The notes under the pieces are model-generated. The model was not told the DNA's origin. It saw nothing but the letters and a program-made list of their open reading frames with translations, and ran no database searches. Shown here piece by piece: positions 1,721 through 8,346 of a stretch of 27,485 bases of DNA; position 1 is the stretch's first letter; each line of letters opens with the position of its first letter. The stretch covers positions 245,275-272,759 of the forward strand of contig NZ_CP034870.1 in the NCBI RefSeq assembly GCF_005081185.1, given 5' to 3'. The DNA is from Buchnera aphidicola (Lipaphis pseudobrassicae) (GTDB lineage Bacteria; Pseudomonadota; Gammaproteobacteria; Enterobacterales; Enterobacteriaceae). A program made the translations under genes and the position numbers.

Positions 1721-1786
1721 TTATTTTTTTGAAGTGTAATTTGGGATAGATAAAGCATTTTTTTCAATTATTAAATTTCTCCATTC
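1721..1786 (-). other. ftsL: Out-of-frame continuation of ftsL
   Basis: Downstream of the A10 tract, in a different frame from the 67-codon ORF, 21 codons read [12 protein letters not shown] then SIPNYTSKK and a TAA at 1723-1721. E. coli FtsL, as I recall it, has EWRNLILEENAL here. One extra A in the tract (A11) joins the two frames; 16 residues then separate TRLL from EWRNL, as in E. coli. The joined product would be about 84 residues, still lacking the last third of E. coli FtsL. Confidence 0.8.
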
Positions 1787-1974
1787 ATTTTTTTTTTGTT
1801 TTTTTTTAAAATAAGATTTTCTTCTTTTGTAATTAATAGACGAGTTTTATAAACCGTAATTACAACAAAACTTGCTGATATTATAATTGCTATAAATAAA
1901 ATTAAATGTATTTTCCAATTTAAAATAAAATCACTTTTAATAATTTCAAATAAATCATAACGTTTAGTATTCAT
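1771..1974 (-). CDS. ftsL: FtsL, divisome protein, apparently truncated by a frameshift
   Basis: Small bitopic division protein that forms the FtsQLB complex and activates FtsWI. The open frame is 67 codons, against about 121 in E. coli. It shows a short cytoplasmic N-terminus, one membrane segment (about residues 22-41, [19 protein letters not shown]), then KTRLL followed by the start of the periplasmic coiled coil. The frame then runs through A9-C-A10 and ends after MNGEI. The shift is probably not a true end: in the next frame the sequence continues [12 protein letters not shown], the FtsL signature segment (see 1721-1786). Its ATG overlaps the end of rsmH by 11 bases, so translation is probably coupled. 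Identity rests on position between rsmH and ftsI plus the TRLL and EWRNL landmarks, recalled from E. coli FtsL. Confidence 0.88.
1788..1807 (-). repeat. A9-C-A10 homopolymer tracts in ftsL
   Basis: Read on the minus strand this is nine A, one C, ten A, directly before TGAATGG. The A10 run (1788-1797) is where the ftsL frame is lost. Runs of this length are known sites of RNA-polymerase slippage in AT-rich endosymbionts. Confidence 0.9.
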
Positions 1975-6912: not shown

Positions 6913-8346
6913 ATGAAAAAAGTAAAGATGATAATATTAAACAAAGTAATATTACTTTTAACACTATCGCTAAGCTTTGGAATGTCTTCAGGAAATTTTA
7001 GTAAAAATACTAATTTTTCTCAGCAAATAGCTCCTAGTTTAGCACCAATGCTAGAAAAAGTCATGCCTTCAGTAATTAGTATTAACATAGAAGGAAGTAC
7101 TGTTGTACGTACTTCTCGTTTACCTCATCAATTTCAACCATTTTTTGGAGATAATTCTCCTTTTTGTCAAGGTAATTCACCATTTCGACATTCCCCTTTT
7201 TGTGGTGTTAGCCCAAATTCTGAAAATAATACAAATGAAAAGTTTCATGCGTTAGGTTCTGGAGTTATTATTGATGCAAACAAAGGATATGCAGTAACTA
7301 ATAATCATGTTGTAGAACATGCAAATAAAATTCAAGTACAGTTAAGTGATGGACGTCGGTATGAGGCTCAAATAATCGGAAAAGATGCTCGTTCTGATAT
7401 TGCTTTAATACAATTAAAAGATGCAAGTAATCTTAGTGCAATAAAAATTGCTGATTCTGATACTTTACGAGTTGGAGATTATACTGTTGCTATTGGTAAT
7501 CCTTATGGTCTTGGTGAAACTGTCACTTCAGGTATTATTTCTGCTTTGGGTCGTAGTGGATTAAATATTGAGCATTATGAAAATTTTATTCAAACTGATG
7601 CTGCAATTAATAGAGGAAATTCTGGTGGAGCATTAGTCAATTTAAATGGTGAGTTAATAGGAATTAATACTGCTATTTTAGCGCCAGATGGTGGAAATAT
7701 CGGAATAGGTTTTGCTATCCCTGGAAACATGGTAAAAAACTTAACTTCGCAAATGGTTCAATTTGGACAGGTAAGACGAGGAGAATTAGGAATAATAGGT
7801 ATGGAGTTAAATTCAGATTTAGCAAAAGTTATGAAGATAAATGCACAAAAAGGTGCTTTTGTAAGTCAAGTTTTACCTAATTCTTCTGCGTTTGAATCAG
7901 GTATTAAAGCTGGTGATATTATTATTTCTTTAAATAAAAAACCAATTTCTAGTTTTTCTGCATTACGTGCTGAGGTTAGTTCTTTACCAGTTACTACAAA
8001 AATGGAATTAGGAATATTTAGAGAAGGAAAAATTAAAAATATTATTGTAGAATTAAAGCATTCTTTAAAAAATAATATTAATTTAAATAACAATTATATA
8101 GGTATTGAAGGAGCAAATTTAAGTAATTATGTATTAAATGGAGAAAAGGGTGTAAAAGTAGAAAATGTAAAATTAAATACTGAAGCATCAAAAATTGGTT
8201 TTAAAAAAGATGATATTATCATTGCAGTAAATCAAAAATCCATAACAAATTTAGAAGAATTAAGAATAATTTTGAACACGAAACCAAAAATATTAGTGTT
8301 TAGTGTAAAAAGAGGAATCCATAATATATACTTAGTAAGCGAATAA
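6913..8346 (+). CDS. degP: DegP (HtrA), periplasmic serine protease/chaperone
   Basis: ATP-independent protease and chaperone for misfolded periplasmic and outer-membrane proteins. The 477 residues compare with 474 in E. coli. An N-terminal signal sequence (about 1-27) has a basic start and a hydrophobic core, but no clear AXA cleavage site. The trypsin-like domain has the triad His132 (TNNHVV), Asp162 (SDIALIQLK) and Ser237 (GNSGGALVN). The LA loop keeps two cysteines (Cys85, Cys97), as in the E. coli enzyme. Two PDZ domains follow (about 290-375 and 390-477). Conservation is very high through the protease and PDZ1, lower in PDZ2. The gene is monocistronic, divergent from apbE and closed by a hairpin shared with dapD. 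Confidence 0.98.
   Translation: MKKVKMIILNKVILLLTLSLSFGMSSGNFSKNTNFSQQIAPSLAPMLEKVMPSVISINIEGSTVVRTSRLPHQFQPFFGDNSPFCQGNSPFRHSPFCGVSPNSENNTNEKFHALGSGVIIDANKGYAVTNNHVVEHANKIQVQLSDGRRYEAQIIGKDARSDIALIQLKDASNLSAIKIADSDTLRVGDYTVAIGNPYGLGETVTSGIISALGRSGLNIEHYENFIQTDAAINRGNSGGALVNLNGELIGINTAILAPDGGNIGIGFAIPGNMVKNLTSQMVQFGQVRRGELGIIGMELNSDLAKVMKINAQKGAFVSQVLPNSSAFESGIKAGDIIISLNKKPISSFSALRAEVSSLPVTTKMELGIFREGKIKNIIVELKHSLKNNINLNNNYIGIEGANLSNYVLNGEKGVKVENVKLNTEASKIGFKKDDIIIAVNQKSITNLEELRIILNTKPKILVFSVKRGIHNIYLVSE

Follow-up and report, generated by a model that had tools for sequence, protein, structure and literature searches.

The ftsL locus described here raises the question of whether a cell division gene whose reading frame is broken at a run of adenines is a dead gene or one that still yields its full-length product. 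The window, by which we mean the whole 27,485-nucleotide stretch of DNA that was analyzed, is part of a 641,221-base contig of a Buchnera genome of 652,461 bases in three contigs, and ftsL lies in it on the minus strand, flanked by rsmH and ftsI, the placement expected of FtsL. A piece of plasmid from this genome had matches to 43 plasmid records, every one of them from Buchnera. Among named relatives the nearest is the Buchnera of Brevicoryne brassicae, which gave the best plasmid match, at 85.8%, and has an FtsL identical to that of G006.

RESULTS

The split frame in the window

The open frame of ftsL ends in MNGEI after 67 codons (Table 1). Read on the minus strand, the split consists of an A9 run, a C at position 1798, and an A10 run followed by TGAATGGAG; one base away, a tail continues open to its stop. 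A sequence-only reading of this locus had placed the displaced tail one base off after A9-C-A10, and the ORF listing and the translation agree with it on this and on the 67 codons. It had further held that one added base leaves 16 residues between TRLL and EWRNL; this was borne out, since the distance from TRLL to EW is 47 nt in the window as against 48 or 45 nt in intact Buchnera genes, and 16 residues separate the two motifs in the FtsL of Enterobacter (L073). The lesion is one frameshift, lying at a long homopolymer (A9-C-A10), and the gene is otherwise intact, its tail staying open as far as the stop at 1721. Profile PF04999 (FtsL) gave the 67-residue ORF a score of 33.0 bits, above its cut-off of 22.9, and aligned with it over profile positions 2 to 53 of 97; two intact FtsL proteins of other Buchnera matched it over positions 1 to 69. 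The segment that activates FtsWI, EWRNL..E, is present in the ftsL of the window but out of frame.

Table 1. Features of the ftsL locus, in window coordinates
Feature	Position	Strand	Basis
Zero-frame ORF of ftsL (67 codons), spanning the cytoplasmic end, the membrane segment, and the greater part of the coiled coil	1771..1974	-	ORF listing and PF04999
A9 run	1799..1807	-	Sequence reading
A10 run, after which the frame is lost	1788..1797	-	Sequence reading; the same place is A-rich in other Buchnera
Displaced tail, 21 residues and stop, one base out of frame	1721..1786	-	Translation; under constraint in the 18 split genomes
Codons corresponding to R82 to E87 of E. coli FtsL (AWI residues)	1763..1780	-	Residue names as reported in PMC7733951, placed by alignment
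Lysine corresponding to E. coli E88	1760..1762	-	34 of 34 Buchnera tails

Recurrence of the split across Buchnera

The interval from rsmH to ftsI was compared in 36 Buchnera genomes. In 18 of them ftsL was one base short (G029, G002, and G026 among these), in 16 it was in frame, in one (G022) it was displaced by the other step, and in one (G024) it was absent; G016 and G001 were not split. Of the 35 Buchnera ftsL genes, 18 have the same tail one missing base off, and the out-of-frame tail of the window is therefore not a product of chance. The 16 in-frame genes include that of G003, a genome that keeps ftsI and ftsW, carries an FtsL tail degenerate to the point of lacking the tryptophan, and has no FtsB-family match (L005). 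The absence of ftsL goes together with that of ftsI and the mur genes: G024 has no match to ftsI, ftsW, or mur genes either, and in the Buchnera of Periphyllus aceris (L090) rsmH is directly followed by ftsA, with ftsL, ftsI, and the mur genes absent between them. The sequence-only reading had called ftsL essential, which is accurate only in a relative sense, because the gene, although kept in 35 of 36 genomes, has been lost in one together with ftsI, ftsW, and mur genes and is degenerate in its tail in another.

The tract itself varies among the split genomes (A9-C-A10, A9-G-A7, A4-C-A10, A17, A18), yet the total spacing is constant at 47 nt in 17 of the 18 (G002, G030, and G032 counted by hand, the other 14 and G018 by computation); the exception, G018, has 41 nt and is again one short. 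Five related split genomes (G002, G010, G020, G032, and G035) have an A9-G tract in common. On a quick tree built from IlvI, IlvH, RsmH, FtsA, and FtsZ, in which 11 of 33 inner branches are open, ftsL changed state at least 12 times, and the states were unclustered (12 changes for the one-short group against a shuffled mean of 12.3).

These comparisons bear on the possibility of a sequencing or assembly error in the homopolymer. Long A-runs are hard to sequence, and 454 data are unreliable in poly(A) regions (PMC3890641), but the one-short state is shared by 18 of 35 genomes, G029 among them, and is found even where the tract is short and interrupted (for example, A9-G-A7). A relative of 67 amino acids (P0005) was also present in other data, as was a two-member cluster with the ORF of the window on four contigs, the longest of 646,221 bases. 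Errors would moreover be expected in both directions, yet 78 of the 83 splits counted in the survey below go one way; we regard error as extremely unlikely.

Selection on the displaced codons

For the first 12 codons of the tail, pN/pS was 0.182 in the split genomes (n = 18) and 0.153 in the intact genomes (n = 15); shifted-frame controls gave 0.49 and 4.18 for the split group and 0.43 and 26.5 for the intact group. Variants in the tail were distributed over codon positions 1:2:3 as 8:1:14 in split and 6:1:13 in intact genomes. Seven pairs of split genomes, with a dS of 0.18 to 0.47 in five intact genes, showed 7 nucleotide differences in the tail where 69.2 were predicted from that dS, and 6 of the changed codons were synonymous and 1 was nonsynonymous; these pairs are not independent, because four of them share G010. 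Judged by this codon pattern, the displaced ftsL codons are under purifying selection while the gene is split. The sequence-only reading had looked to a comparison of strains for such a signal past the split, and the comparison provides it for the split genomes, at the level of the genus rather than of a single species.

True truncation, in which the tail would have ceased to be made and would be in decay, would be consistent with the stop in the open frame and with the dispensability of ftsL where the cell wall cluster has been lost. Against it stand the 7 differences counted between split genomes where 69.2 were expected and the pN/pS of 0.18 in those genomes; real decay also has another appearance, as in apbE of G035 and G018, which is broken into short frames, unlike ftsL and murF. 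As far as codon patterns can tell, this constraint refutes truncation for the genus as a whole, and we consider it very improbable.

Splits in the neighboring genes

The survey of splits covered 31 genes in a stretch of 39.8 kb from the 36 genomes; flhA was partly tested, as far as the stretch reaches, because the end of the stretch cuts this gene in many genomes. Fourteen of 96 survey rows (five in frr, five in degP, three in dnaE, and one in flhB) were dropped because they lie at runs of 5 to 7, in terminal parts of the gene where the reference frame extends too far. The count of directions adds ftsL of G022, by hand, and ftsW of G004, and unflagged cases, including murF of G022, were counted as intact. 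It also removes uppS of G012, a false split in which an intact frame of 245 amino acids is present.

The gene most often affected was murF, which was split in 29 of 35 genomes and one short in 28 of these; in the genome of the window (L037) it lies outside the window and is one short at an A11 run. A one-short murC, broken at about residue 99, was present in 10 of the 35 genomes and requires seven or more changes on the tree. Further splits occurred in murE (7/35), ddlB (7/35), and apbE (6/32), and there was one each in ftsI, mraY, murD, fabZ, and ftsW, the last being one short at a T10 run in G004. No splits were found in the 36-genome survey in ilvI, ilvH, ftsA, ftsZ, rsmH, rpsB, tsf, pyrH, map, dapD, dxr, murG, proS, or bamA, or in the covered part of flhA. 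In G029 (L161), a single open frame of 629 codons has a bamA-like start and a fabZ-like end, as if the two had been joined.

Over the 31 genes, 78 splits were one base short and 5 showed the other step, which was carried by five genomes; the binomial test of this direction assumes independence across related genomes, and its p value is too small. The minimum number of changes on the tree was 39 in all for six genes. The frequency of splits rose with the length of the A-run, from 0 of 7,531 at A6 to A8 through 8 of 560 at A9 and 31 of 199 at A10 to 22 of 57 at A11, in a count that leaves out four genes and in which one of the 31 A10 splits was later judged false. Although 75 of the 78 one-short splits lie at A-runs and 3 at T-runs, we gave up the idea of a preference for A-runs over T-runs, which had a small p value as long as run length was left uncontrolled: with length controlled, 3.4 T-run splits were expected and 1 was seen (2 with ftsW). 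At constant run length, splits were only modestly concentrated by gene (38 of 2,000 permutations were as extreme), and this concentration forms only a moderate argument against sequencing error. It is the constraint on the tail together with the one-short bias that argues strongly against both sequencing error and truncation, the alternatives that the sequence-only reading had itself named.

The murF gene serves as a parallel test, since it supplies the power that ftsL lacks. In the 28 one-short genomes (378 pairs), the median dN/dS was 0.266 in the downstream, out-of-frame part and 0.249 in the upstream part; in six intact genomes (15 pairs) the corresponding values were 0.242 and 0.199, and shifted-frame controls gave 0.877 and 1.972. 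An internal stop was present in the displaced part of 2 of the 28 split genes. All 14 genomes of one large clade have murF out of frame.

A further explanation does without any rescue: the splits would be young and short-lived, the tail would be kept by a mostly in-frame history, and the 67-residue FtsL would be enough in the meantime. The 12 or more unclustered changes of state on the tree fit this explanation, as does the survival of G003 with a degenerate tail. On the other hand, half of the genomes were caught in the split state, the A9-G tract of five related split genomes is what would be expected of an old split, and murF is out of frame throughout a clade of 14 genomes, with a dN/dS near that of the intact part. 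We find this explanation improbable.

DISCUSSION

Probable restoration of the frame

Five observations form the basis for the view that full-length FtsL is very probably still made, through slippage while the gene is being read: the split itself, its presence in 18 of 35 ftsL genes, repeated switching between states, selection on the tail, and a bias toward one missing base at long runs. The rescue by slippage that the sequence-only reading had suggested gains support from the constrained tail and from the 78 of 83 splits that are one base short; the comparison does not separate slippage of the polymerase from a ribosome slipping by minus one, as both restore a one-short gene. We hold recoding of one kind or the other, by polymerase or by ribosome, to be highly likely. 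The best explanation, and in our judgment a probable one, is that ftsL is live but one base short and that slippage of RNA polymerase restores the frame in some of its mRNAs. According to this model, the DNA of the live gene would lack one base within the long A-tract, and RNA polymerase would slip backward on the run, so that a fraction of the mRNAs gains one A. The corrected mRNAs would give rise to full-length FtsL with the FtsWI-activating tail, and the remaining mRNAs to a 67-residue FtsL that ends before it. The restoration of the frame, its placement at transcription, its efficiency, and the tolerance of the short product are what we infer.

A survey of Buchnera transcripts reported 157 insertions and 70 deletions, with 80% of the insertions being of a single base; the insertions lay mostly in A/T runs and rose exponentially with run length (PMC5574713). 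One added A would rescue one-short genes only, and this is the state tolerated in the genomes. Counter-evidence comes from the same study, which states that it detected no restored frame; per nucleotide, it gives an insertion rate of 1.30e-5 and a deletion rate of 1.75e-5, and in Buchnera homopolymers deletions also rise with run length (PMC5574713). In reporters, moreover, E. coli RNA polymerase is described as slipping little on A-runs and preferring T-runs, with a threshold of at least seven T or of more A (PMC6260861). The report of no deletion on poly(A) in that work covers short runs only, of about 8, and in an in vitro report that it cites, deletion was the predominant event on A11 (PMC6260861). 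The one-short bias may in part reflect a bias of replication slippage: a deletion bias in replication could give part of the 78 against 5, but not the constraint on the tail.

The bias also fits a slip of the ribosome, in which the mRNA would stay one base short and the ribosome would move back by one base on the A-rich lysine codons and so enter the tail. A minus-one shift restores exactly those genes that are one short, and the slippery heptamers A_AAA_AAC and A_AAA_AAA were read by eye in the zero frame of ftsL; the small amount of slippage by E. coli RNA polymerase on A-runs also removes part of the case for transcription (PMC6260861). The RNA past the tract showed nothing unusual and no stimulatory stem-loop in the one sequence folded (z, 0.57; 139 of 200 shuffles folded at least as well), and by eye no internal Shine-Dalgarno-like stretch was seen about 10 nt upstream. 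There were no splits at 7,531 runs of A6 to A8, where a heptamer of A should suffice, although short runs mutate less. Corrected transcripts, finally, have been measured for Buchnera mur genes, at 12 to 50% of the message (PMC5009743). The reports of corrected transcripts from cell wall genes and the lack of structure after the tract place the ribosome second; the preference of the E. coli enzyme for T-runs and a direction that fits both mechanisms weaken the polymerase reading and raise that of the ribosome, which we consider unlikely.

Relation to known systems

In the E. coli dnaX gene, an A-rich slippery run gives rise to two product lengths. The event there is a minus-one ribosomal frameshift (PMC3017870); ftsL shares the A-rich run but has no hairpin and no visible internal Shine-Dalgarno-like stretch. 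The interrupted tssM gene of Citrobacter rodentium is reported to be read by transcriptional frameshifting (PMC4256274), and slippage yields two length variants in that gene, as proposed for ftsL; tssM, however, is a secretion gene with experimental proof.

Rescue by slippage at poly(A) is established in cell wall genes of Buchnera and in Blochmannia (PMC5009743, PMC3164680, PMC3017870, PMC6260861). Transcriptional slippage that rescues poly(A) frameshifts in Buchnera mur genes goes back to Tamas et al. (2008), as cited in the same four papers. Those mur genes resemble ftsL in belonging to the same genus, in having an A-run of about 10, and in being otherwise intact, whereas for ftsL about half of the 35 species-level genomes show the split in their DNA. 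Ancient homopolymer frameshifts kept by selection were described by Wernegreen et al. (2010), cited in PMC3017870. Here too the frameshift lies at a homopolymer, is conserved between species, and affects a gene that is not degrading, but Buchnera ftsL toggles between the in-frame and one-short states. Degnan et al. (2011) interpreted recurrent homopolymer frameshifts in Buchnera murF as four independent inactivations, some of which could regulate expression (PMC3164680). The tract type and the occurrence in several lineages are the same in our data, in which, unlike theirs, murF is one short in 28 of 35 genomes with constrained downstream codons. Rescue by slippage at poly(A) is already known; searches of open-licence PMC papers yielded no mention of ftsL as a member, of genus-wide toggling, or of the lysine at position 88 (see below).

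For Aphidinae Buchnera, murF has been listed in 29% and ftsL in 84% of genomes (PMC10591338). In another study, frameshifted genes were removed as likely pseudogenes, and the Rhopalosiphum maidis symbionts, which "lack" murC, murE, and murF, were found to have walls (PMC9116674). Where frameshifted genes are left out, Buchnera murF, murC, murE, and ftsL come to be called lost, and the building of a wall then needs explaining. The codon constraint found for murF and ftsL suggests that many "lost" genes may be one base short and still under selection. The problem of missing enzymes would then become a measurable question, namely, what share of the message or protein is restored to frame. The bias toward one missing base might likewise serve as a sign of rescue, readable from the sequence only, in other symbionts with AT-rich genomes, provided that a bias of replication has first been excluded.

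The displaced tail and the division machinery

With a first residue equivalent to E80, the displaced tail holds all AWI (activation of FtsWI) residues and position 88. In E. coli FtsL, the substitutions R82E, N83K, L84K, L86F, and E87K are reported to be dominant negative and mark the AWI segment, and E88K is an activation allele in the CCD, which overlaps it; CCD activation mutations reduce the dependence on FtsN (PMC7733951). The positions of W81, R82, L84, and E87 were invariant in 34 of 34 Buchnera tails, and position 88 was lysine in all 34. Among 80 comparison loci, 54 had a match to the motif, which was not confirmed as FtsL locus by locus, and lysine occupied position 88 in none of 57 instances (Q in 31, E in 22, L in 2, and D and M in 1 each). 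Neither a SPOR domain of the FtsN type nor FtsQ was found in the 36 Buchnera genomes, with a positive E. coli control, and ftsN and ftsQ have been put at 0% in Aphidinae Buchnera (PMC10591338). The FtsB family had a match in 31 of the 36 genomes, 26 of them over the cut-off.

By analogy with E88K, the break might remove a tail that is permanently switched on. We speculate further that the split could act as a dosage valve, with slippage setting the ratio of tailed, activating FtsL to tail-less, blocking FtsL and so replacing the lost trigger; this idea seems doubtful to us, and, if it were true, toggling between the in-frame and one-short states would tune division. An E88K-like lysine in a genus without FtsN offers a testable idea for division that lacks its usual trigger. 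Intact Buchnera FtsL proteins (80 to 84 amino acids) are still about 30 C-terminal residues shorter than the FtsL of Enterobacter.
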